This document shows positions 45,820-57,674 of a stretch of 64,000 nt of DNA, piece by piece. A program made the translations under genes and the position numbers. The notes under the pieces are model-generated. The model did no database searches and was not told where the DNA came from. It was given only the letters and a program-made list of their open reading frames with translations. Origin of the DNA: Streptomyces sp. LaPpAH-108 (lineage in GTDB: Bacteria; Actinomycetota; Actinomycetes; Streptomycetales; Streptomycetaceae); assembly GCF_000373625.1 (NCBI RefSeq), contig NZ_KB891993.1, forward strand, positions 372,001 to 436,000, read 5' to 3'. The number at the start of each line of letters is the position of its first letter. Position 1 is the stretch's first letter.

Positions 45820-46839
45820 TCACGGCCAGCGGTCGGGCTCGCGCGGGGCCGGGTCGTCCGGCTCCAGGGCGGTGGCGATGTCGTCGCCGTCCAGGATCTG
45901 GTCGCCGTAGAGGTCCTGGAGCCAGTTGGTCTGGTAGATGGTGTCGAGGTAGCGCTCGCCGAGGTCGGGGGCGATGGCGACGGCGGTGATGTCGGGGGTG
46001 CCGTGGCGCGACAGCCATTCCGTCGCGCCGCTGACCACCGTGCCCGTGGAGCCGCCGAACAGGAAGCCGCGCCGGGCCATGAGGTGGCAGGCGCGTATGG
46101 TGTCGGCCTCCTCGACCCGGATCACCTCGTTGACGTACGACTCGTCCAGGAGCGGGGGTCTCATGCTCATGCCGAGTCCGGGGATCATACGGCGGCCGGG
46201 TTCGCCGCCGAAGGCCACCGAGCCCACGCTGTCCACGGCGACGATGCGTACGGGGCGGTGCCACTGCCGGAAGTAGCGGGCGCAGCCCATCAGGGTTCCG
46301 GCGGTGCCCGTGCCGACGAACAGCACGTCGAGGCGCGGGAAGTGGCGGGCGATCTGCGGTGCCGTGGTGCGGTAGTGGGCCTGCCAGTTGCCGGGGTTGG
46401 TGTACTGGCTGAGCCACACGTACCGGTCGTCGGAGGCGCACAGCGAGCGGACGTATTCGAGCCGGGTGCCCAGGAAGCCGCCGTTCTCGTCCAGGTCGGC
46501 CACGATGTGCACCCGGCTGCCGAGGGCTTCCATGAGCAGCCGGGTGGACAGGTTGCACCGGGAGTCGGTCACGCACAGGAAGCGGTAGCCCTTGCTCGCG
46601 GCGATCATGCTGAGGGCCACGCCCAGGTTGCCGGAGGAGGATTCGACGATGACGGAGTCCGGCTTCAGGATGCCGTCCCGTTCGGCGCTCTCCACCATCT
46701 CGTTCGCGGCCTTCAGCTTGATGGAGCCCGCGAAGTTGAATCCCTCGCACTTCAGATAGAGGGGGTGGTCGACGACCGGCTTGAGGTCGACGAAGAGGTG
46801 GCCTTCGTTGAAGTCATGGGGAGCGGATATGACGGGCAC
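45820..46839 (-). CDS. sbnA: 2,3-Diaminopropionate biosynthesis protein SbnA (PLP-dependent)
   Basis: A 339-residue cysteine-synthase-like PLP enzyme. The Schiff-base lysine is in GFNFAGSIKLKAA, followed by VIVESSSGNLGVALS and the phosphate-binding loop GTGTAGTL. SbnA enzymes condense O-phospho-L-serine with L-glutamate to N-(1-amino-1-carboxyl-2-ethyl)-glutamate. The GTG at 46839 has GGAGG six nt upstream. It is last in an operon with sbnB, a dioxygenase, an NRPS and a Pls-like protein, and with SbnB makes L-2,3-diaminopropionate. Confidence 0.92.
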   Translation of the reverse strand: MPVISAPHDFNEGHLFVDLKPVVDHPLYLKCEGFNFAGSIKLKAANEMVESAERDGILKPDSVIVESSSGNLGVALSMIAASKGYRFLCVTDSRCNLSTRLLMEALGSRVHIVADLDENGGFLGTRLEYVRSLCASDDRYVWLSQYTNPGNWQAHYRTTAPQIARHFPRLDVLFVGTGTAGTLMGCARYFRQWHRPVRIVAVDSVGSVAFGGEPGRRMIPGLGMSMRPPLLDESYVNEVIRVEEADTIRACHLMARRGFLFGGSTGTVVSGATEWLSRHGTPDITAVAIAPDLGERYLDTIYQTNWLQDLYGDQILDGDDIATALEPDDPAPREPDRWP

Positions 46840-46878
46840 GGTGGGCCTCCTGGTACCGGGGACGGGTGGCGGACCGAC

Positions 46879-47949
46879 TCAGCCGTACCGGCGCAGGTCG
46901 TGGAAGAAGTGGTCGATGACGCGGAGGTCTCCGGCTCTCGCGGCCTGGTCGTAGACGTACTTGCCGACGGCGAGGTCGAGGACGCCGAGGCCGAACGGTG
47001 AGAAGATCACCGGCCGGTCGGCGGGCGGGGCGGCCCGGCCGAGCATCACGTCGTTGAGCGTGCCGTTGAGGAAGTCCCGGTCGCCGGTGTGCTGTTCGAC
47101 CAGGTGCGGGGAGGTGTCGGCCTTGAGGCAGTGCTCGACGTCGTCCACGAAGTTGGCCGAGGCCAGCAGGACTTCGGGGGCGAGGTCGCGCAACGAGATG
47201 TGCAGGACCACGGGGTTGTGCTTGAACAGGGCCGGGTCGGTGACGTGCGGCTCGCCCGCGATCGTGGCGAAGACGACCAGGTCGCTCTCGCGGATCAGGT
47301 CCTCGGGCCGCTCGTGGACGGTGATCTGGGCGGTGGTCCCGCTCTGCTCCAGATAGCCGCGGAATCCGGCGGCGCTCTCGGCGGCCACGTCGTGCACACC
47401 GATGGTGTCGAACATCCAGCCGGTGCCCGCGAGGAAGGTGTGGATGTAGCGGGCGATGAGGCCCGTGCCGAAGAATCCGACGCGGGTCGGGCGCTGCCGG
47501 GTGCGGCTGAGCCAGTCCGCGGCCAGTGCGGCGGAGGCCGCGGTCCGGGTGGCGCTGATGATGGAGCTTTCCAGGCAGGCGAACGGGTAGCCGGTCACCG
47601 GGTCGTTGAGGATGAGGACCGCCGAGGCGCGGGGCAGCCCCGAGCGCACGTTCTCCGGGAAGCTGGAGATCCACTTGATGCCGTCGACGGCCGCCGAGCC
47701 GCCGAGGGAGGCGGGCAGCGCGATGATGCGCGAGCTGGGGCGGTCGGGGAAGCGCAGGAAGTACGAGGGCGGGTTGACCGAGTCACCGGCGCCGTGCAGC
47801 CGGTAGGTGGCCTCGACCAGTTCGGTGAGCTGCTTCTCGCGTCCTTCGAGCGCCTGGCGCACCTGGTCGCCGGAGATCACGGCGAAGGAGGGCACCGAGG
47901 GCGGCTCGGGCGCCACCGGCTGTGCGGGGGTGGTCAGCTGGCTGGTCAT
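46879..47949 (-). CDS. sbnB: 2,3-Diaminopropionate biosynthesis protein SbnB (ornithine-cyclodeaminase-like)
   Basis: A 356-residue ornithine cyclodeaminase/mu-crystallin family dehydrogenase. It has KWISSFPENV, the NAD-binding VGFFGTGLIARYIHTFLAG and VVFATIAGEPHV. SbnB oxidatively cleaves the SbnA product to L-2,3-diaminopropionate and 2-oxoglutarate with NAD+. Its ATG at 47949 overlaps the dioxygenase stop (ATGA). The released 2-oxoglutarate is also the cosubstrate of the adjacent dioxygenase, a tidy metabolic pairing. Confidence 0.92.
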   Translation of the reverse strand: MTSQLTTPAQPVAPEPPSVPSFAVISGDQVRQALEGREKQLTELVEATYRLHGAGDSVNPPSYFLRFPDRPSSRIIALPASLGGSAAVDGIKWISSFPENVRSGLPRASAVLILNDPVTGYPFACLESSIISATRTAASAALAADWLSRTRQRPTRVGFFGTGLIARYIHTFLAGTGWMFDTIGVHDVAAESAAGFRGYLEQSGTTAQITVHERPEDLIRESDLVVFATIAGEPHVTDPALFKHNPVVLHISLRDLAPEVLLASANFVDDVEHCLKADTSPHLVEQHTGDRDFLNGTLNDVMLGRAAPPADRPVIFSPFGLGVLDLAVGKYVYDQAARAGDLRVIDHFFHDLRRYG

Positions 47950-48950
47950 CGCGTGCCCTCCTGCGGAGTGGTGGCGCCGTCGGCCAGGCGGCGGGGCTCG
48001 GCCATGCCGACGAGCACCTGCCGGTCGCCGGTGAAGGGCTCTCTGCTGTGCGCGGTACGGATGTTGTCGACGAGCAGCAGGTCACCGGCCTGCCAGGGCT
48101 CGCGCCCGGTGTGCTTCTCGTAGGTGTCGTTGAGCACCTGGACGACGTCCTCGCCGATCGGGGCGCCGTCGCCGAAGCGGGTGTTGAACGGCAGGCCGTC
48201 CTCGCCGTACTCGTCCACCAGGTATTCGCGGACCTCGGGGGCGAGCGTCCACTCGTTGAGGAAGGCGATCTGGTTGAACCAGCAGCGCTCGCCGGTGACC
48301 GGGTGGCGGACGACGGCCGGGCGGCGCTGCGCGGTGCGCAGGGAGCCGTCGGGCTGCCAGGTGAAGTCGATGTCCTGGGCCCGGCAGTAGCGCTCGATCT
48401 CGGCGCGGTCGGCGGTGCCGAAGGACTCCTCCAGGGTGGCGCCGATCTCGTCGTTGTAGGAGCGGGTCAGCAGCCAGCCCTCGCGCTCGAAGCGTTCGGT
48501 CAGCGCGGCGGGCAGCGCCCGCAGGATCTCGGTGGCGTCGGCCACGGCCGTGGCGCCGCCCTGTTCGGGCGCGGTCAGGCAGGCGAAGAGCATCAGGCCG
48601 GGCGGTTCGAGCGTGTAGCTCAGCTCGTGGTGCATGCACATCGGCTGGTTGGCCGGCCAGGCCGTGGAGGAGTAGAGCCCCGGGCCGAACTCCTGGCGGG
48701 GCGCGAAGGATTCCCGCTCCGTCAGCAGACCGCCGGTCAGCCGGGAGAAGACGGCGCCGACCTGCTCCGTGTCGCGCAGCCCCAGACCACGGATCAGCAG
48801 CGCTCCGTGCTCGGTGACCTGAGTGCGCAGCACCTCGCGGTACTGGGCCGCCCAACTCGCCACGTCGGCGGGGGTGTCGACGTGGGCGACCGCCGGTCGG
48901 TCCGGCCGCGACTCGACAGCGAGCGGTGCGGCCAGGGATGAGGTGGACAT
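47946..48950 (-). CDS. TauD/SyrP-like Fe(II)/2-oxoglutarate dioxygenase
   Basis: A 334-residue clavaminate-synthase-like protein. The metal-binding HxE motif is His107-His108-Glu109 in MCMHHELSYTLEPP; the distal His lies in VDNIRTAHSREPF, with the following Arg for 2-oxoglutarate. Related enzymes hydroxylate beta-carbons of NRPS-bound or free amino acids, so beta-hydroxylation of a cluster substrate is plausible but unproven. It sits 68 nt after the NRPS and overlaps sbnB. Confidence 0.87.
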   Translation of the reverse strand: MSTSSLAAPLAVESRPDRPAVAHVDTPADVASWAAQYREVLRTQVTEHGALLIRGLGLRDTEQVGAVFSRLTGGLLTERESFAPRQEFGPGLYSSTAWPANQPMCMHHELSYTLEPPGLMLFACLTAPEQGGATAVADATEILRALPAALTERFEREGWLLTRSYNDEIGATLEESFGTADRAEIERYCRAQDIDFTWQPDGSLRTAQRRPAVVRHPVTGERCWFNQIAFLNEWTLAPEVREYLVDEYGEDGLPFNTRFGDGAPIGEDVVQVLNDTYEKHTGREPWQAGDLLLVDNIRTAHSREPFTGDRQVLVGMAEPRRLADGATTPQEGTR

Positions 48951-49018
48951 CTCGGTTTCTTCCTTTCGGTTGCCGGTCCGCGGTACAGCGGGGGTCGGGG
49001 AGAGGAAAGGCAGGAGGT

Positions 49019-52000
49019 TCAGGAAGGGGCCAGCGGGGCTGTGGCGGCGAGGACCGCCTTGGCCGCCTCGTCCGGGCGCAGCCGGGTGAAGTAGTGGCCC
49101 CCGTCGGGGAGTTCGTGCAGGTCCACGTGGTCGGCCAGGAGCAGCCAGTCCCGGTGGGCGTCGGTGTGTCCGGCCGTGTACGGGTCGTCGGCGGCCACGA
49201 CGACCGTCACCGGGGCCGCGAGTCTCGCCCGGGGCGGGTTCTCCAGGGCGTCGCTGAAGTAGCGGTGCGCGGCCAGGCAGTCGTGCCGGTAGGCGGCGCC
49301 GACACGTCCCGCGTGCGGCGCGGCGAGTTCGGCCAGCTCGGTGTAACCACCCTCCGAGGCAAGCCGGGCGGCGATGGCGGTGTCGTCCCGGCCGTCCAAC
49401 TCGGTGATGGCGGCGCGGCGTTCAGCCACGGTGCCGGGCAGCTGTGCGGCCAGGAACAGCCGGGTCACCTCGATGCCGCGTTCCTGGAGCCTGCGGGCGG
49501 TCTCGACGGCCGGGGCGGTGCCCGAGGAGTGGCCCCACAGCATGACCCGGGTCAGCCCGCGTGCGGTGATCTCGTCGGCCACCCGCCGCGCCACCTCGGG
49601 GATCGGGGCGAACGGCTCCTGGTGGGCGGCGAGATCGTGTCCGGGCAGCTCCACCGCGAGCACCTGGGTATCGGAGGCCGCCAGCGCACCGGCCATCGGC
49701 TGGTAGTTGACGGCGTTGCCGCCCGCGTAGGGGAAGCACACCAGCGTGCTCTCCGGTGTCCCGGCCGTCTCCGCGAGCGGCTGGAGCAGTTCGGTGCGCG
49801 CACCGCTCGCGCCGTCGAGAAGGGCGGCCAGGTCGGCGAGGACCGGGTGGCGGGTGATGTCCTTGAGGGACACCGCGCGGTCGAGCGCGATGGTGAGCTT
49901 CACGGCCGTCAGCGAGGTGCCGCCCGCGTCGAAGAAGTGGTCGGTGCGTCCGATCCGCTGCTCGGGCAGACCCAGCAACTCCGCCCAGATGGCGGCGAGT
50001 CGGCGCTCGGCCGGGGTGCGCGGGGCGTCACCTGCCTCCTCGCGCTCGGGCGCGCTCTGTTCGGCCAGCGCGGTGAGCGCCTTGCGGTCGGTCTTGCCGT
50101 TGGCGGTCAGCGGCAGGGCGGACTGCCAGTGGAAGGCGGACGGGACCATGTAGGCGGGCAGGTCGGCGGCGAGCGTGTCGCGCAGCTCGTCCACGGGGAG
50201 CTGCCGCCCGGAGTAGAAGGCGATCAGGTGCTTGCCCTGGCCGGGCCGCTCGGCGACGACCACCGCGCCGTCGCGTACACCGGGCACCCGCAGCAGGGTG
50301 TTCTCGATCTCCCCGATCTCGATGCGGAAGCCGCGGATCTTGACCTGGTTGTCCCGGCGCCCGAGGAACTCCAGCTTGCCGCCGGGGTGCCAGCGGCCCC
50401 AGTCGCCGCCCAGGTAGAGCCGTTCGCCGGGGCGGTACGGGTCCTCCCGGTACGCCTCGCGGGTGCGCTCGGGGTCGTTGACGTAGCCCCGGCCGACGCA
50501 GACGCCGGAGAAGGCGATGAGGCCGGGGGCGCCGAGCGGGACCAGGTCCAGGTGCTCGTCCACGACGTACACGCGCACGTTGTTGACCGCGCGGCCCAGC
50601 AGGACGCGTTCGCACGGGCCGTCGATGATCTCGTGGTTGGTGTCGTCCGACGTCTCGGTCAGGCCGTAGGCGTTGACCAGCTCGATGCCGGGCTGGACGG
50701 CGAACCAGCGCTGGGTGAGTTCCGGCTTCAGCGCCTCACCGGTCACCGACACGCAGCGCAGATCGGGGAGTTCGCGGGGGTGCTGCTCCAAGTAGGAGAC
50801 CAGGACCTCCAGATAGGAGGGCACGAGCTGGGTGACGCCGACCCGGACTTCGGTCAGGGTGTCGACGAAGCGCTCCACGTCGACCAGCACGTCCTGTCCG
50901 ACCAGCAGGGTCCGGCCGCCCACGAGCAGTCCGGACACCAGCTGCCACAGGGAGATGTCGAAGCACTGCGGTGCGGTCTGGGCCACCGTGTCGCCCTCGC
51001 CGATGCCCAGGTCGTCGATCTTGGCGAAGAGGTGGTTGACCATGCCCGCGTGCTCGCACATCGCGCCCTTCGGCTCGCCCGTGGAGCCGGAGGTGAAGTA
51101 GATGTAGGCGAGCTGGCCGGGGTCGACCGTGATGCCCGGGTCGTCGTCGGCGTGCGGCTCGGCGTACGCGTCCTCGACGAGCAGCCTCTCGGCGTCGGGG
51201 ACGGTGGCGAGCGCCTGGTCGAGAGTGCCGGTGCTGCCCCGCTCGGTCAGCACCAGGCGGCACCCGGCCCGGGACAGCGTGGCCGCGATCCGGCCGGGCG
51301 GGAAGTGCGGCTCGATCGGCAGATAGGCGCCGCCCGCCTTGAGGACCGCGAGGGTCGCGGCCAGCCAGTCGAGATTCCGTTCGGTGACGACCGCGACCAC
51401 GTCCTCGCGGTCAAGGCCCCGGGCGAGCAGCGCGCGGGCCAACCGGTTGGCGCGGGCGTTGAGTTCGCCGTACGTCCACTGCCGGTCGCCCTGCACGGCG
51501 GCCACCGCGTCCGGGTGGGTCCGCACGCGCCGCTCGAAGAGTTCGTGCGCCCGCGCGTCGGGGAGCGCCCGCTCGGGCCCGGCCAGCCCCTCCAGCAGCT
51601 CGTGCCTCTCCCGCGCCGACAGCAGGCTCTGCCGGGTGTGTTCGGCGTCCGGATCGGCGGTCATCAGGTTCAGCGCGGTGAGGTGGTATCCGGCGATGCG
51701 GGCCGCGCTCCCGGTGTACAGGACGTCCGTCCGGTAGCGCAGCCGCAGCATGGGCGCTCCGTCGTCCCCGCTCCAGCCCACGTGCAGCACGACGTCGTCG
51801 GGGAGGGTGCCGTCGCCCGCTCCGCAGGTGACCTCGTACGGCGGTTCGGTCAGGGCCAGTTCGCGCCGGAGCGCGGCCACCGGGAAGTCACGGTGCGCGA
51901 GCACGTCGGCCCGCGCGCGGTGGGCCGCCGTGACCAGGTCGCGCCAGGTGCCGGGGGCGGCGGTCAGGCGCAGCGGCAGGGGTTCGCCGGTGGCATCGGC

Positions 52001-52261
52001 GAAGTGGCCCGTGACCACGTCCTGTTCGCCGGAGAGAGCGGCCAGCGCCTTGGCGTGGACCGCCAGCAGGAGGGCGTCGAAGGGCACGTGAAGCTCGTGT
52101 GCCAGCGCGTGCACGGCGTCCGCCAGGGCTTCGGGCACGGGCACCTCGTACTCGGCCACGCCGGCCGCCGGCTGCCCGGTCCACCTCGGGACCTGGGTGA
52201 AGCCTCCGGCGGTGAGTGTCCGGCACCAGAAGTCCCGGTCCGCCTCCACGTGCGCTTCCAT
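49019..52261 (-). CDS. Non-ribosomal peptide synthetase, partial C - A - T - TE
   Basis: A 1,080-residue NRPS. Residues 1-215 resemble the C-terminal lobe of a condensation domain without the HHxxxDG site. The A domain (about 235-735) has YFTSGSTGEPKG, FDISLWQL, an unusual NAYGLTETSDDTNHE, and NGKTDRKAL. The carrier has DHFFDAGGTSLTAV with Ser783. The thioesterase (about 838-1075) has WGHSSGTAP with Ser912. By analogy with GrsA numbering, pocket positions 235/236/239 read D/I/W and 330/331 D/D; acidic residues there would suit an amine side chain such as diaminopropionate. ATG 52261 has GGAG upstream. Confidence 0.9.
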   Translation of the reverse strand: MEAHVEADRDFWCRTLTAGGFTQVPRWTGQPAAGVAEYEVPVPEALADAVHALAHELHVPFDALLLAVHAKALAALSGEQDVVTGHFADATGEPLPLRLTAAPGTWRDLVTAAHRARADVLAHRDFPVAALRRELALTEPPYEVTCGAGDGTLPDDVVLHVGWSGDDGAPMLRLRYRTDVLYTGSAARIAGYHLTALNLMTADPDAEHTRQSLLSARERHELLEGLAGPERALPDARAHELFERRVRTHPDAVAAVQGDRQWTYGELNARANRLARALLARGLDREDVVAVVTERNLDWLAATLAVLKAGGAYLPIEPHFPPGRIAATLSRAGCRLVLTERGSTGTLDQALATVPDAERLLVEDAYAEPHADDDPGITVDPGQLAYIYFTSGSTGEPKGAMCEHAGMVNHLFAKIDDLGIGEGDTVAQTAPQCFDISLWQLVSGLLVGGRTLLVGQDVLVDVERFVDTLTEVRVGVTQLVPSYLEVLVSYLEQHPRELPDLRCVSVTGEALKPELTQRWFAVQPGIELVNAYGLTETSDDTNHEIIDGPCERVLLGRAVNNVRVYVVDEHLDLVPLGAPGLIAFSGVCVGRGYVNDPERTREAYREDPYRPGERLYLGGDWGRWHPGGKLEFLGRRDNQVKIRGFRIEIGEIENTLLRVPGVRDGAVVVAERPGQGKHLIAFYSGRQLPVDELRDTLAADLPAYMVPSAFHWQSALPLTANGKTDRKALTALAEQSAPEREEAGDAPRTPAERRLAAIWAELLGLPEQRIGRTDHFFDAGGTSLTAVKLTIALDRAVSLKDITRHPVLADLAALLDGASGARTELLQPLAETAGTPESTLVCFPYAGGNAVNYQPMAGALAASDTQVLAVELPGHDLAAHQEPFAPIPEVARRVADEITARGLTRVMLWGHSSGTAPAVETARRLQERGIEVTRLFLAAQLPGTVAERRAAITELDGRDDTAIAARLASEGGYTELAELAAPHAGRVGAAYRHDCLAAHRYFSDALENPPRARLAAPVTVVVAADDPYTAGHTDAHRDWLLLADHVDLHELPDGGHYFTRLRPDEAAKAVLAATAPLAPS

Positions 52262-52272
52262 CGATTGCTCCC

Positions 52273-54879
52273 TCAACTCACGGTCGTTGCGGCGGCGTTG
52301 TCCAGAAACGGGGGTGTTCTGCGATCCGGTCCCACGGGGGGCGGCGCGGTCTCGGGCAGGTCGGCGGCGGGGTTGCCGCCCCAGTGCGCGTGCGGCGGGA
52401 CCTCCTCGCCCTTCATCAGGAAGGAGTCGGGCGCGAGCACGGCGCCCTCGCCCACCTTCACGCCGTAGTGCACGTGCGCGGCGACGCCCAGCGTGCAGTC
52501 GGCGCCGATCCTGGTGACGGCGGACTTGAAGGTGCCGTCCTCCTGCGAGTGGCACTGGATCTTGCATCCGGCGTTGAGCGTGGCTCCGTCACCGATGGCG
52601 GTGAGCGTGCGCTCGGTGATGAAGCTGCCGTCGTCGAAGACCATGCGGCCGATACGGACGCCCATCAGCCGCCAGATCAGGGGCTTGTAGGGGGTGCCGT
52701 TGAAGATGTTCAGGTGCTGGTCCGGGATCTTCCACAGCCGCTCCTGCTTCCAGAACGAGCGGTCGTAGATGGAGCACAGCTGGGGGCGCAGCCTGCGGAA
52801 GGACAGCAGGCAGCGTTCCACCACGATGTAGTAGCCGGTGGACAGCAGCAGCGTCAGCGCCATGTACCCGGCGATCACGAAGTGCCCCACCACGCCGTAC
52901 AGGTTCACGGTGGCCAGCGCCAGGAGGGTGAGCGCGAGGACGTGCAGCCAGCGTACGAACAGCATCAGGGCCATCGAGCGCAGGTTGTAGCGGTTCTTCG
53001 CGGCGAGCCCCTGGCGCAGCGCCTCGCCGCCCCTGAGGTGGTCGAACCGCGCGTCGCGCTCCACCGTGCGGGGGATCTCGAAGCACGGCGAGCCGAGCAG
53101 TCCGACACCTTCACGGACCTCGCCGTCCAGCGGCACCATCACCTTGGTGGCCAGCAGGCAGTTCTCGCCGGTCCGGCCGCCGGTGGGGTAGGCGATGTTG
53201 TTGCCGAGGAAGTTGTGCGCGCCGATGGTCGTCCGCGAGAGGCGGAACGAGGTGGCGGAGTAGTCCGCGTTGATGACGGAGAGCCCGTCGGCCACCATCG
53301 TGCCGCTGCCCACGGTGACCAGGAGCGGGCTCTCGTGCTGCACCTCGGTGCCGAAGTTGGAGCCCGTCTGCTCGACGTGCGAGAGGTCGTACCCGATGCC
53401 GCGCAGGTAGCTCACGATGTACGAGCTGTCGCCGAAGAGCCACGCGAAGAACTTGACGTTGGTCATGCGCGCGGTCGCCCGGTGCACCGCGTACTGGAAG
53501 CCGTAGAGCGGGTACACCCGGTCCGGTCTCACGACCAGGCTCAGCAGGCGCGGGAGCGTGCAGAGGGCGGCCAGGCCCAGGACGACGAAGCCGAGGAAGA
53601 GGGCCAGCGAGAGGAGCACCGAGTCCCATGCCAGCTCGGACAGCGTGAGCGCGGCGGCGGGCTCCAGGCGCTTGCGGATCGCCGGCACCTCGGTGAACAG
53701 CATGTACATCCCGCCCACCCCCAGCGGGATGTACAGCAGGAGCAGCTGGAGCAGGGAGGCGCAGCCGAACCAGGTACGGCGCAGGGCGCCGCACGGGGCC
53801 GGGGCGACCCGCACATAGTCGACCTCGGTGGGCTGGGCGGGCGATCCGTGCCGGTGCTCGCCGTCCGGGACCGCCTGGCCCCGGTGCAGGGACGAGGAGT
53901 GGCCGAGCTGCGCGCCGTCGCCCATCGACGTGTCGATGTCCAGGATGGTCTTCTCGCCGATGTACACGTCGCGGCCGAGGGTGATCCGGCCGGTCTGGAT
54001 GCGTCCCGCGTACGCCCGGTAGCCGAGCAGGAACGTGTCCTTGCGGACGACGGTGCCGGAGCCGATGGTCACCAGGTCGGTGCAGACCGGCATGGAGTGG
54101 GAGAGGATCGTGACGCCCTTGCCGATCCGCGCGCCGAGCGCCCGCAGATAGAGCACGTACAGCGGATTTCCGACGAAGAGAAGCATCGGATTGGCGTGGA
54201 GCAGCGACTTCACGATCCAGAAACGCAGGTACGCGGCGCTCCAGACGGGGAATTCGACGGGTTTCCAGCGGCCGATCAGCACCCATTTGGCGACGACCGG
54301 TATGGCGCACAGGACCAGGAATCCGGCGCCGCCGAACAGCAGGGAACGCAGATAGATCTCCCACAGCCCCGATCCCGAGGCGACCCATTCGTAACCGGCG
54401 GCGGTGCCGAATCCGGCGACCAGTGAATACCCCAGGAAGCACAGCGTCTGCAGAGTTCCGCACAGGACGTGGGAGGCCCGGCTCGCCCGCCGCACCGGTT
54501 CCGGCGGCACGGTCCGCACCAGCGGCGCGAGGGACGCCGGGGCGTCCACCTGGGGCGGGGCGGCCTGTTCCAGAGCCGCCGCCAGACCGCGGAGCGTGGG
54601 GTGCTGGTAGATGTCCTTCATGGACGGGGAGGGCAGGTCTCCGCGTTTGCGGACCCGCGCGCAGAATTGCGCCATGACCAGGGAATTGGCACCGAGGTCG
54701 TCGAAGAAATTGCCGTCGGGGGGAATGGTCTCGATCCCCACGACACCGGCCAGCACTTCCGCGAGGCGCGTTTCGGTGTCCGCTCTCACCGGACCGGGGC
54801 TGTCGCGCCGGGTGACGGCGCCGCCTTCCGGTCCGCGTATATCTGTCTCCGAGTGGACCTCCGAGGACTGCTCCACCAT
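52273..54879 (-). CDS. Split Pls/PosA-type protein: carrier domain + membrane hexapeptide-repeat NRPS terminal domain (TIGR02353-like)
   Basis: An 868-residue membrane protein. A carrier domain (about 35-105) has FFDDLGANSLVMAQF with phosphopantetheine Ser66. Three left-handed-beta-helix (hexapeptide) segments follow (about 250-330, 520-600 and 755-850; e.g. VTIGSGTVVRKDTFLLGYRA), alternating with pairs of membrane helices (about 135-200, 370-450, 635-700). This is the layout after the A domain in epsilon-poly-lysine synthetase Pls and relatives; here the A domain is missing. ATG 54879 has GAGGAG five nt upstream. First gene of the biosynthetic operon; probably forms peptide bonds at the membrane using residues loaded in trans. 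Confidence 0.87.
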   Translation of the reverse strand: MVEQSSEVHSETDIRGPEGGAVTRRDSPGPVRADTETRLAEVLAGVVGIETIPPDGNFFDDLGANSLVMAQFCARVRKRGDLPSPSMKDIYQHPTLRGLAAALEQAAPPQVDAPASLAPLVRTVPPEPVRRASRASHVLCGTLQTLCFLGYSLVAGFGTAAGYEWVASGSGLWEIYLRSLLFGGAGFLVLCAIPVVAKWVLIGRWKPVEFPVWSAAYLRFWIVKSLLHANPMLLFVGNPLYVLYLRALGARIGKGVTILSHSMPVCTDLVTIGSGTVVRKDTFLLGYRAYAGRIQTGRITLGRDVYIGEKTILDIDTSMGDGAQLGHSSSLHRGQAVPDGEHRHGSPAQPTEVDYVRVAPAPCGALRRTWFGCASLLQLLLLYIPLGVGGMYMLFTEVPAIRKRLEPAAALTLSELAWDSVLLSLALFLGFVVLGLAALCTLPRLLSLVVRPDRVYPLYGFQYAVHRATARMTNVKFFAWLFGDSSYIVSYLRGIGYDLSHVEQTGSNFGTEVQHESPLLVTVGSGTMVADGLSVINADYSATSFRLSRTTIGAHNFLGNNIAYPTGGRTGENCLLATKVMVPLDGEVREGVGLLGSPCFEIPRTVERDARFDHLRGGEALRQGLAAKNRYNLRSMALMLFVRWLHVLALTLLALATVNLYGVVGHFVIAGYMALTLLLSTGYYIVVERCLLSFRRLRPQLCSIYDRSFWKQERLWKIPDQHLNIFNGTPYKPLIWRLMGVRIGRMVFDDGSFITERTLTAIGDGATLNAGCKIQCHSQEDGTFKSAVTRIGADCTLGVAAHVHYGVKVGEGAVLAPDSFLMKGEEVPPHAHWGGNPAADLPETAPPPVGPDRRTPPFLDNAAATTVS

Positions 54880-55076: not shown

Positions 55077-55640
55077 TCAGCCGGTCACGCCGAGCAACCG
55101 CCCCCATTCCTCAACGGTGGCGGTGCCGATGTCCGGCCGGCGGATCAGCACCTCGCCGATGACCGTGTCGTGCAGGGCGGGGTCGCTGTCGGCACAGGCG
55201 TCCGACAGGACGGTGACGCCGTAGTCGAGGTCGGCGGCCTGGAAAGCGGCGGCCAGGACGACCCCGGCGGTGGAGACACCGGCCAGGGCGACGTGCTCGA
55301 TACCCCGGGTGTCGAGGAGCTGCCGCAGGTCGTTGCCCGCGAAGGCGCTGACCCGGTTCTTGTGGACGACGATCTCGCCGTCGACGGGGGCCGCCTCGGG
55401 AACGAGCGCGGCGCCGGGGTCACCGGCGGTGTAGCGGCCCGGAGGGAGGGCGCCGAAGATCTTGTTGCGGGGGTGCGCGTCGACGTGGTCCGCGCGCAGC
55501 TGGAGCGCCACATGGATGACCGGCACACCCGCGGCACGCGCCGTATGGAGGGCGCGCACAGCGCGGGGCAGGTAGCCGTCGGGCATGTGGGCCGCGTGGG
55601 CGACCTGGAGGTCCATGAGGAGCAGGGCGGTGCGGGGCAT
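55077..55640 (-). CDS. Isochorismatase-like (cysteine hydrolase superfamily) protein lacking the catalytic Cys
   Basis: A 187-residue protein with the superfamily Asp in TALLLMDLQVAH and Lys in EIVVHKNRVSAF. The usual catalytic Cys position in the GVxTxxCV loop reads AGVSTAGVVLAAAF, so the nucleophile is absent, as in several actinobacterial homologues. A true isochorismatase, hence a catecholate pathway, is not supported. It follows the MFS gene by 18 nt and probably belongs to the MarR-MFS operon. Function unknown. Confidence 0.82.
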   Translation of the reverse strand: MPRTALLLMDLQVAHAAHMPDGYLPRAVRALHTARAAGVPVIHVALQLRADHVDAHPRNKIFGALPPGRYTAGDPGAALVPEAAPVDGEIVVHKNRVSAFAGNDLRQLLDTRGIEHVALAGVSTAGVVLAAAFQAADLDYGVTVLSDACADSDPALHDTVIGEVLIRRPDIGTATVEEWGRLLGVTG

Positions 55641-55658
55641 GGGTGTGCCTTTCGTACG

Positions 55659-57071
55659 TCACTTCGCCGTCTGCGCGTCGGCCGCAGTCGCGCGGCCCAG
55701 CGTGCGGTCGAACACGGTCAGCAGCAGATAGAGCGCACCGGCGCCGAGCATGACCCAGGCGAGGTGGTGGATCCCGGCGGTGTCGGCGTGGCGGCCGAAG
55801 GACGCGGCGGTCGCGGAGGAGGCGACCATCGAGCCGATGTAGGCGAAGGTGCGCAGCAGTCCGGCCGAGGACGCGATGCGGTCGGGGTCGGCCTGGAAGT
55901 AGACGGAGTTCTGGAGGGCCAGGTTGTTCAGCCCCTGCGGGACGCCGAAGAGCAGGGCGACCAGCGGCAGCATCCAGAACGGGCTCTTCCCGGAGAGGGT
56001 GAGGATCAGCAGGCAGGCGACGATCTGCCCGGCCGCGCCGAGCAGCAGCTTGCCGCGCACGCCCTTGCGGCGCCCGGAGACGATCGAGACCCCGATGGCC
56101 ATGAGGAACATGGGGATCTGCGCCAGTCCGGCGTGGAAGGGACTGAGCCCGTAGCCCTCCTCGGTCCACTGGCTGAAGCCGTAGAGGAAGGCGTAAGAGA
56201 CGACATAGGCGACGAGCGCGCGGCCGTACGTCGCGATCAGCGGGGTGTTGCCGCCGAGGACGCGCAGGTCGATGAAGGGGGCGGCGGCGCGCAGCTCCCG
56301 CAGCGCGAAGGCGGTTCCCGCGGCGACGGCGATCAGCAGCAGGTACCCGTCGCGCAGATGCAGGTTCATCAGGAAGAGCAGCAGCGAGGTGAGCGTCGCG
56401 GCGAACAGGGCCATGCCGGGCAGGTCGAGCCGCGCGGCGGCGGGCCCGGACTCGTCCGTCCCGGGGGCGGACCTGGGCAGCCGCCACAGGCCGAGCAGGA
56501 CGGCGAGCACGGCCAGCGGGACGTTCAGTGCGAAGGTGGCCCGCCAGCCGCCGACCGCGATGAGCAGCCCGCCGAGCAGCGGGCCGACGACGGCGATGGT
56601 CTGGTTGGTGACGGCGAGCGCGGTCAGCACCCCGCCGGGGCTGTCATGACCGGTGCGCCGGGCCTCGCTGCGCAGCAGGGCCATCGCGGCCGGGTAGCCC
56701 GCGCAGGTGCCGAACCCGAGCAGGACCCGCGCGACGATCAGCACCCCGAGGTTCGGCGCGAGGGCGCCGACGACACCGGCGACGCCGACGAGGCTCGTGC
56801 TGATCAGGAACAGTCTGCGCGGTCCGAACAGGTCGATGAGCCGCCCCACGACGGGCTGTCCGAGCGAGGTGGCCAGATAGAGCGCCGAGACGAGCCAGGC
56901 GGTCTGGGAGGCGGGGGCGCCCAGGGCCGTACCGATGGGGACGAGCGCGACGGAGATGATCGTCGAGTTGATCGGGTTGAGGACGGAGCCCAGCATCATG
57001 GGCGGCAGCAGCCGCCGGTCGAAGCCGGGCTTCTCCGTCTCGGATATGGCGTCCGCCTTCGCCTCAGTCAC
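55659..57071 (-). CDS. MFS drug-type exporter
   Basis: A 470-residue transporter with about 14 predicted helices: LNPINSTIISVALVPIG (helix 1), GRLIDLFGPRRLFL (motif A) and VVGPLLGGLLIAVGGWRATFALN. The start GTG 57071 overlaps the MarR stop by 8 nt. Being in an operon with a MarR repressor, immediately upstream of the diaminopropionate NRPS operon, it is a good candidate for product export or self-resistance. Confidence 0.88.
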   Translation of the reverse strand: MTEAKADAISETEKPGFDRRLLPPMMLGSVLNPINSTIISVALVPIGTALGAPASQTAWLVSALYLATSLGQPVVGRLIDLFGPRRLFLISTSLVGVAGVVGALAPNLGVLIVARVLLGFGTCAGYPAAMALLRSEARRTGHDSPGGVLTALAVTNQTIAVVGPLLGGLLIAVGGWRATFALNVPLAVLAVLLGLWRLPRSAPGTDESGPAAARLDLPGMALFAATLTSLLLFLMNLHLRDGYLLLIAVAAGTAFALRELRAAAPFIDLRVLGGNTPLIATYGRALVAYVVSYAFLYGFSQWTEEGYGLSPFHAGLAQIPMFLMAIGVSIVSGRRKGVRGKLLLGAAGQIVACLLILTLSGKSPFWMLPLVALLFGVPQGLNNLALQNSVYFQADPDRIASSAGLLRTFAYIGSMVASSATAASFGRHADTAGIHHLAWVMLGAGALYLLLTVFDRTLGRATAADAQTAK

Positions 57072-57510
57072 GGGTCAGCCGCTCCAGTACGGCCATGGCG
57101 GTGATCACGGTCTGCCGCTCCTCCTCGGTGCACCGGTCCAGCAGCCGCTCCGCGAGCCATTCGGTACGGGCCTGGCGGCCCTCCGCCACGCGGCGCCTGC
57201 CCTCGTCCGTCAGCACGATGAGCAGGCGGCGCCCGTCGTCCGGGTCGGGGTGGCGCTCCAGCAGGCCCATCGCGGCGAGCGAGGCGACGGTCGCGGTCAT
57301 CGACTGGTGCCGTACGCCCTCGTCGGCGGCCAGTTCGCTCGCCGTGACACCGCCCTTGTCGGACAGACGGGCCAGGACGGACGCCTGGCTCAGGGTGAGG
57401 TCGTCGACCTCGGACGCCTTCAGGATGCGGCGGCGCAGTCGGCTGATGACGGTGCGGACGTCGCGCGATGCCTGGATCGCGGAGGGCGGCAGGCCGGGGT
57501 TCTCACTCAT
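57064..57510 (-). CDS. MarR-family transcriptional regulator of the exporter operon
   Basis: A 148-residue winged-helix protein: LTLSQASVLARLSDKGGVTA, SELAADEGVRHQSMTATVASLAAMGLLERH and wing DPDDGRRLLIVLTDEG, all canonical. ATG 57510 is used because the frame to 57630 would read through the palindrome at 57529-57544. Overlap with the MFS gene couples their translation. Likely an autorepressor. Confidence 0.9.
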   Translation of the reverse strand: MSENPGLPPSAIQASRDVRTVISRLRRRILKASEVDDLTLSQASVLARLSDKGGVTASELAADEGVRHQSMTATVASLAAMGLLERHPDPDDGRRLLIVLTDEGRRRVAEGRQARTEWLAERLLDRCTEEERQTVITAMAVLERLTRD

Positions 57511-57528
57511 GCGGCCCACCGTAATCTT

Positions 57529-57544
57529 TACAGTTCCAACTGTA
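57529..57544. promoter_or_regulatory. MarR operator TACAGTTCCAACTGTA
   Basis: A perfect 16-bp palindrome (7-bp arms, CC spacer) 19 nt upstream of the MarR start, in an AT-rich promoter-like stretch (TAATCTTTACAG). It fits autoregulation of marR-MFS-hydrolase. Confidence 0.85.
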
Positions 57545-57674
57545 CAGCTTTCCCTGTGGAATGAGATCACGAGGACCCCACAAGAGTTACCATCCGTGAC
57601 ATAACGCTTCTGATCAGTCACGGGCGGCATGGCTCTCCGGCTGGGTAGGCGCAGGGGCCGGAGTGGAGGTGCGC

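Follow-up and report, generated by a model that had tools for sequence, protein, structure and literature searches.

Results

The split locus

The window analysed here is a 64,000-nucleotide stretch of the genome of Streptomyces sp. LaPpAH-108 (contig NZ_KB891993.1, positions 372,001 to 436,000), and this report concerns a group of five genes on its minus strand, spanning positions 54879-45820, the first of which encodes a relative of the Pls and PosA homopoly(amino acid) synthetases. In order, the genes encode a carrier domain joined to the terminal ligase region of that family (hereafter T-PlsC, or PlsC for its relatives elsewhere), a nonribosomal peptide synthetase (NRPS), a TauD-family oxygenase, and SbnB- and SbnA-type enzymes of L-2,3-diaminopropionate (L-Dap) synthesis. 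We suggest that this unit is a real, widespread and apparently undescribed variant of the Pls/PosA synthetases. An earlier reading of the window from its letters alone (the sequence-only reading) had described a reverse-strand operon of five genes, and all of them were confirmed, together with their order and strand (Table 1); the distances between them, 11, 68, -4 and 39 nt taken 5' to 3', show tight packing, as in an operon.

Table 1. Features of the five-gene unit, in window positions.
Feature	Position	Strand	Evidence
T-PlsC without adenylation (A) domain; carrier plus Pls/PosA terminal ligase region with membrane segments; 868 residues	52273..54879	-	TIGR02353, 791 bits; PP-binding
NRPS: condensation C-lobe remnant, A domain, carrier, thioesterase (TE); 1080 residues	49019..52261	-	Pfam; code DIWQSTADDK
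C-terminal lobe of a condensation domain, NRPS residues about 1-215; N-terminal lobe absent	51617..52261	-	Structure match to 2jgp
Fe(II)/2-oxoglutarate oxygenase, TauD family; HxE...H ligands H107/E109/H301 and R310	47946..48950	-	PF02668, 156 bits
SbnB-type L-Dap synthesis enzyme	46879..47949	-	TIGR03944, 416.8 bits (cut-off 326.9)
SbnA-type L-Dap synthesis enzyme	45820..46839	-	TIGR03945, 385.7 bits (cut-off 349.95)

The TIGR02353 profile covers the 868-residue protein full length (residues 139-838 against profile positions 1-695), at a score well over the cut-off of 423 bits. A PP-binding domain at residues 38-103 precedes the ligase region, hydropathic stretches lie near residues 175-197, 371-394, 421-439 and 637-686, and a Pfam scan of the protein returned no AMP-binding match, the mark of an A domain. 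Judged by these profile matches, T-PlsC is a member of the Pls/PosA terminal-domain family that lacks an A domain of its own, as had been proposed, and it is the one TIGR02353 match above the cut-off in its genome. Its carrier serine, Ser66, is kept in all 89 aligned sequences, which comprise the window's and those of 88 of the 90 loci described below (L037 and L097 were excluded by length). We note that proteins annotated as 'Pls/PosA family non-ribosomal peptide synthetase' may be without an activating domain.

Conservation and distribution

Among 394 sampled genomes of the window's family, Streptomycetaceae as judged by named relatives, 97 hold a homologue of the 868-residue protein at E <= 1e-30. 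All places with at least 50% identity were taken, leaving out the window's own and counting the pieces of G337 and of G332 once each, for a total of 90 loci; a stop codon inside the PlsC match was marked for L037 and some others. In 73 of the 90, from 72 genomes, the other four genes lie downstream in the same order and orientation, with no violation among the 73. Three more loci have the NRPS, TauD and SbnB genes downstream and SbnA just upstream on the opposite strand, in divergent arrangement; one lacks only the NRPS, one has a partial NRPS at a contig end, one carries a broken gene beside an SbnA fragment, nine hold PlsC alone, and two have a fused A domain. The oxygenase is absent only at contig ends or where the NRPS is also absent. 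The product of the unit, whatever its exact structure, is thus predicted from nearly one in five of the sampled family genomes (72 plus the window's own, of 394). A class-level search of 394 genomes, partly the same as those of the family sample, placed PlsC at E <= 1e-150 in 17, four of them outside the genus.

A scan of genome contigs with an alignment of the NRPS returned at least 590 relatives, and the best 80 of these were scored for the other genes at 40% identity or more (35% for PlsC) and over 90 bits within the fetched flank. PlsC is present in 68 of these best 80 loci; 66 of the 68 also carry TauD, and 62 have the SbnA and SbnB genes in addition. In the two that have PlsC and no TauD, the contig ends 670 and 52 bp past the NRPS match. 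The PlsC-bearing organisms of this set include Pseudonocardia, Actinomycetospora, Amycolatopsis, Geodermatophilus, Blastococcus, Kutzneria and Arthrobacter, along with metagenome-assembled genomes labelled Nakamurella, Gammaproteobacteria, Filomicrobium, Acidobacteria and others, labels that may be wrong. Gene order varies in the wider set, with SbnA upstream in several loci. In two metagenomic loci (L199 and L208) the order is SbnA-SbnB-PlsC-NRPS-TauD and the SbnA and SbnB proteins are only 41-44% identical to the window's; both enzymes of L199 score above the TIGR family cut-offs. A changed order and changed supply genes with the same gene content are better evidence than a count alone. The separation of A domain from ligase region, which the sequence-only reading had singled out as unusual, is therefore real and has been kept in evolution, as has the co-occurrence of the five genes. 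The possibility of an assembly or annotation artefact was considered and rejected, as scores of loci show the same A-less form.

The set without PlsC also occurs beside other synthetases. In L085 the NRPS, TauD, SbnB and SbnA genes adjoin a protein of A-ketoreductase-carrier organisation, and in L087 they adjoin a condensation-A-methyltransferase-carrier NRPS together with stand-alone condensation and A proteins; the four-gene set seems to be portable between assembly lines. Five further loci (L226, L229, L231, L225 and L222) hold an A-carrier-TE protein of the same code together with TauD, and gave no PlsC, SbnA or SbnB match at the thresholds used; these orphan clusters are reminiscent of dapdiamide biosynthesis. 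PlsC itself is found alone at nine A-less loci (L055, L135, L136, L137, L140, L141, L142, L144 and L148), where it is possible that the protein draws in trans on the loading protein of a five-gene locus. Near solitary PlsC genes, no neighbour was common to more than four of 11 loci.

No conserved transporter or additional partner was found among 40 loci, the next commonest neighbours occurring in seven (counted over the 40 and the window). Directly upstream of the operon, on the same strand, lie genes for a MarR regulator, a DHA2-type major facilitator superfamily (MFS) transporter and an isochorismatase-like protein (window 55077-57630). These were rejected as parts of the system: none of them was found at 40 loci, and among 80 further loci the MarR and MFS genes recur in the near relative L162 only and the isochorismatase-like gene in none. 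A siderophore of the staphyloferrin B type was likewise rejected. Staphyloferrin B clusters carry IucA/IucC-type siderophore synthetases, and none of ten proteins scanned from the operon and its surroundings gave a Pfam match of that type; nor did any of them match an ATP-grasp ligase, such as DdaF of the dapdiamide pathway.

The putative loading protein

The second gene likely starts at the ATG at 52261, which gives a protein of 1080 residues with AMP-binding, AMP-binding_C, PP-binding and Thioesterase domains by Pfam and a Condensation match below threshold that begins at profile position 182 of 456. The partial condensation domain reported by the sequence-only reading proved to be a C-terminal lobe only. 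Residues 1-215 are modelled mostly at a predicted local distance difference test score (pLDDT) of 70-93, and by structure comparison the modelled lobe matches residues 267-522 of 2jgp (Z 23.0, root-mean-square deviation (rmsd) 3.0 A over 211 residues) and residues 191-441 of the surfactin structure 8f7g (Z 20.7, rmsd 3.1 A, 208 residues), the N-terminal lobe being absent. It is in the N-terminal lobe that the catalytic HHxxxDG motif of condensation domains sits. The lobe is matched in 69 of the 73 five-gene loci; a part without the catalytic half has therefore nevertheless been retained. A Foldseek list for the whole model was headed by complete NRPS modules and said little on function.

At the other end of the protein lies a TE with the motif GHSSG. 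Among TE structures its model is closest to the TE of the sulfazecin enzyme SulM (8w2c_B; Z 26.5, rmsd 2.7 A, 243 residues), an enzyme that makes a monobactam, and it also matches the type II TEs BorB (Z 23.3, rmsd 2.8 A, 237 residues) and RifR (Z 22.6, rmsd 2.7 A, 233 residues). In L059 the TE lies in a shifted frame. The carrier serine of the NRPS is kept in 73 of 74 aligned proteins, the window's included, with a gap in the other.

The ten pocket positions of the A domain were placed by alignment to GrsA, at what we take to be the code positions of that protein. In the window they spell DIWQSTADDK, as they do in 37 of the 39 homologues of a first set; of the other two, one reads DIWQCTADDK and L059 has a frame that stops before the last code position. 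In the wider set the same code stands in 76 of the best 80 loci, and the other four differ at a single position. The sequence-only reading would have been undermined by a code for a hydrophobic residue, and this one is non-hydrophobic, with two acidic positions near its end. The intact one-chain synthetases, which come from plasmids and from two of the local genomes, carry either DFECLSVVTK or a different code whose third position is likewise Glu. PMC10522769 gives the A pocket of the Pls/PosA family an Asp at the first code position and a Glu at the third; in DIWQSTADDK the third is Trp, so this signature is lacking. Because its code differs from the Pls-type codes, the loading A domain does not look like a Pls A domain that was relocated to another gene. 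We infer that its substrate is L-Dap, an assignment that rests on gene neighbourhood, since a search of the open-licence literature found no paper with the string DIWQSTADDK.

The code, or the variant DIWQATCDDK, also occurs in two clusters without PlsC, L160 and L161, beside genes for an SbnA-like pyridoxal phosphate (PLP) enzyme and an enzyme of the argininosuccinate-lyase type, together with a gene that carries a kinase annotation. In L226 the same code has as neighbours a PLP enzyme, a lyase of the argininosuccinate type and an ATP-grasp protein of the L-amino-acid-ligase kind. For these three PlsC-less clusters it is possible that the amino acid is 2,3-diaminobutyrate instead of Dap.

Oxygenase and predicted Dap supply

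The iron and 2-oxoglutarate residues H107, E109, H301 and R310 are kept in all 74 aligned TauD sequences, the window's included. Relatives 49% identical to the window's oxygenase occur in clusters L103 and L104, with A domains whose codes we take to be Gln-like, and one 40% identical occurs beside an Asp-like code in L245; DdaC, the oxygenase of the dapdiamide pathway, is 34% identical. In a tree of 37 chosen rows, the oxygenases from PlsC, SbnA/SbnB and most PLP/lyase contexts form one clade (96/98) and the Gln-type oxygenases fall outside it, the inner order being poorly resolved. The SbnA and SbnB proteins exceed the curated cut-offs of their families and are, by family, the L-Dap synthesis pair, so that the supply function assigned to them in the sequence-only reading stands as a prediction of their activity.

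We also observed sbnA and sbnB near a tryptophan halogenase gene on two Streptomyces plasmids (L244 and L245, the former with anthranilate genes as well), a further uncharacterised type of Dap-related cluster, and an SbnB homologue, 68% identical, on plasmid pSCL4 of Streptomyces clavuligerus (L243), where the feature table used lists nothing in the surrounding stretch.

Proposed origin of the split

A PlsC tree was built from 66 hand-chosen sequences, 44 of them local (the window's included) and 22 others; it is a quick tree with Shimodaira-Hasegawa approximate likelihood ratio (SH-aLRT) support, and 11 of its 63 forks are open. Six Pls-type proteins, 26-31% identical to the window's, stand apart, five of them named as the outgroup and the sixth falling with these. 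The next branches are intact one-chain synthetases. Every A-less protein of the set belongs to a single clade (SH-aLRT 99), to which two Pseudonocardia proteins that have a fused A domain also belong. Synthetases of the DFECLSVVTK code are the ones with which the window's PlsC groups. On this tree the A-less ligases nest within Pls-like synthetases that contain an A domain.

A search of plasmids for PlsC gave 70 records, of which seven were opened first and two more afterwards. Five of the first seven have a fused A domain, decayed in one, and two are A-less. On the Pseudonocardia plasmids L076 (4622-10143) and L106 (8201-13464), a TauD gene comes after the gene for a Pls/PosA protein whose fused A domain is decayed: motif A3, the region of A8 and the lysine of A10 are altered or gone, and a second carrier takes the place of the domain. 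A third Pseudonocardia plasmid, L105 (10742-15719), carries a short AMP-binding gene that stands by itself, altered in its core motifs, ahead of an A-less Pls gene and TauD. These forms look like intermediates in the loss of the A domain, and they would fit the replacement of an A domain acting in cis by a loading protein acting in trans. Thirteen loci with an intact fused A domain gave no TauD match in the 13.7-26.5 kb fetched; this contrast between split and fused loci is not a clean test, as the two groups differ in ancestry. Three of the actinobacterial plasmid genes of the Pls/PosA family (L073, L074 and L075) lie within about 12 kb of genes for the transport of copper or other metals.

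Discussion

We propose, at about even odds, that the operon encodes a split, carrier-fed relative of Pls that is supplied in trans with carrier-bound, probably oxidised, L-Dap. In this scheme SbnA and SbnB would make L-Dap, which the A domain of the NRPS would activate and load onto its own carrier. The TauD enzyme may then oxidise the carrier-bound aminoacyl group, most likely at C-beta, a guess drawn from its carrier-dependent relatives, and the condensation lobe, lacking its catalytic half, might speculatively serve as a docking platform for the oxygenase. The aminoacyl group would next be moved to the carrier of T-PlsC, with the TE acting as an acyl shuttle where there is one and directly where there is none, and the three membrane-associated ligase domains would, by analogy with Pls, join the units into a cationic isopeptide oligomer. 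The separation of activation from ligation would give the oxygenase access to the carrier before polymerisation, an access that a one-chain Pls does not offer. Our argument for chemistry on a carrier is based on the two conserved carriers and the constant oxygenase. We venture somewhat more tentatively, at a shade below even chances, that the monomer is edited before it is polymerised, so that a large share of actinomycetes would make an oxidised poly-Dap not seen before, whether an N-acyl hemiaminal, a dehydro-Dap or something similar.

A number of observations weigh against this proposal. As a free compound, C-beta-hydroxy-Dap would be a hemiaminal and unstable; an acyl group on its beta-nitrogen would stabilise it, and the reaction may instead be a desaturation or some other oxidation. 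The TE, for which a domain search found no match in 35 of the 73 five-gene loci, cannot be essential, and the weight that the sequence-only reading had placed on this domain as a defining element is lost. The NRPS is absent from the neighbourhood of PlsC in L107, and seven of the nine solitary PlsC genes, which lack all partners, sit in genomes that also hold a five-gene locus. Our co-occurrence counts are not independent of phylogeny, and the structure model of T-PlsC (mean pLDDT 43.9) is too poor for use. With respect to the code, the Dap assignment depends, as noted above, on gene neighbourhood, and DdaD of the dapdiamide pathway has DSEDIGVINK where the operon has DIWQSTADDK. The SbnA-like enzymes of L160 and L161 score 209 and 238 bits, under the cut-off of 350, and the lyase of L160 passes the ordinary argH cut-off; for these reasons the link of the two clusters to Dap is itself a matter of inference. 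L218 has the code, and the 10 kb to each side of it gave no match to TauD, Sbn or PlsC; the oxygenase of L160 is of a distant type, 34% identical to the window's and placed outside its clade, with DdaC, in the set named as outgroup; the code is therefore not tied, as far as these sequences go, to an oxygenase of the window's type.

The same genes could be read more simply. The A domain might charge the PlsC carrier directly in trans, as a stand-alone enzyme, to give unmodified beta-poly-L-Dap (PDAP), with the oxygenase acting on the finished polymer or elsewhere. PDAP is a known Pls-type product: S. albulus PD-1 makes it, two SbnA/SbnB-like proteins providing the L-Dap (PMC4668381), and the grouping of the window's PlsC with synthetases of the DFECLSVVTK code agrees with this. 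The S. albulus enzyme, in contrast, is a one-chain synthetase, and in the same account its two L-Dap genes are not close to it; direct charging, moreover, needs neither the NRPS carrier serine nor TauD, the first kept in all but one of the aligned proteins and the second missing, in the PlsC-NRPS loci among the best 80, only at contig ends. We prefer oxidation on the carrier, and regard plain PDAP as unlikely, because the NRPS keeps a carrier of its own and TauD accompanies the PlsC-NRPS pair in that set wherever there is sufficient sequence, in contrast to the 13 fused loci noted above. A comb-like Dap polymer has been cited as a Streptomyces product (PMC10522769, PMC9606270), and the two carriers of the operon, its single diamino-acid-type code and its Dap supply might be thought to fit it. 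That polymer leaves no role for the conserved oxygenase, and a passing statement in PMC10522769 credits it, too, to an enzyme that combines adenylation and carrier domains with terminal membrane domains. We consider its identity with the operon product very improbable.

It may also be that the A-carrier(-TE), oxygenase and Dap genes form a module for a short oxidised or cyclic Dap product, such as a beta-lactam released by the TE, which PlsC attaches or exports instead of polymerising it. That the same A-carrier(-TE) protein and TauD recur in loci lacking PlsC, next to NRPS proteins or to an ATP-grasp ligase, speaks for such a route, as does the likeness of the TE model to that of SulM. On the other side stand the many operons in which no TE was matched and the unbroken conservation of the PlsC carrier serine, as expected of a synthetase, and we judge this route quite unlikely. 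Returning to the split, carrier-fed synthetase, we would stress that Dap activation, Dap hydroxylation and a Dap oligomer product, all named in the sequence-only reading, are predictions, and that the interpretation given there is, as a whole, partly supported. Homologous clusters tied to a known product, which would have told against it, were looked for and none was found.

Comparison with known systems

Parts of the proposed scheme have counterparts in other pathways. In streptothricin biosynthesis (ORF5, ORF18 and ORF19), adenylation is likewise set apart from the carrier on which a diamino-acid oligomer grows; the monomer is beta-lysine, a stand-alone A domain performs the elongation and, to our knowledge, the system has no TIGR02353 membrane ligase. 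SyrB1, SyrB2 and SyrC combine an A-carrier protein, a non-haem iron enzyme acting on the carrier-bound amino acid and a TE-like shuttle to a second carrier. In the operon, by comparison, the acceptor is a membrane protein of the polymerase type, and the TE is a shuttle by proposal only.

The dapdiamide cluster of Pantoea (DdaA to DdaE) shares with the operon SbnA/SbnB-type genes, an A-carrier protein, an alpha/beta hydrolase and an Fe/2-oxoglutarate oxygenase that works on a carrier-tethered Dap derivative. The cluster differs in having an ATP-grasp ligase and the ligase DdaG, and the stretch fetched has no Pls-type gene. DdaC epoxidises Nbeta-fumaramoyl-Dap while this is tethered to DdaD, according to PMC12451424. 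Dap supply genes have been noted in other actinomycetes as well: in Streptomyces scabies, an SbnB whose gene lies close to an NRPS gene and a homologue of sbnA is among the proteins affected by potato tuber (PMC11479980), and sbnA/sbnB clusters of Saccharopolyspora have been linked to staphyloferrin B (PMC11162802). A description of a split Pls with an oxygenase was not found in the open-licence literature, subscription literature being outside the scope of the search.

The closest relatives remain Pls (the epsilon-poly-L-lysine synthetase, whose product polylysine serves as a food preservative), PosA and the poly-L-Dap synthetase of S. albulus PD-1, which likewise join a carrier to a TIGR02353-type ligase region; with the last of these the operon also shares an SbnA/SbnB-like supply and, as predicted here, an L-Dap monomer. 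In contrast to all three, the A domain of the operon is of another type and resides on a separate protein that has a carrier of its own; an oxygenase has been added, and the Dap genes lie inside the operon. The Pls-type polymers described in the passages compared are ascribed to one-chain enzymes that use unmodified amino acids. If our proposal is correct, the split, carrier-fed version would show how Pls synthetases can take edited monomers, would open the interface between A domain and ligase to exchange, and would point to an uncharacterised, probably cationic product.

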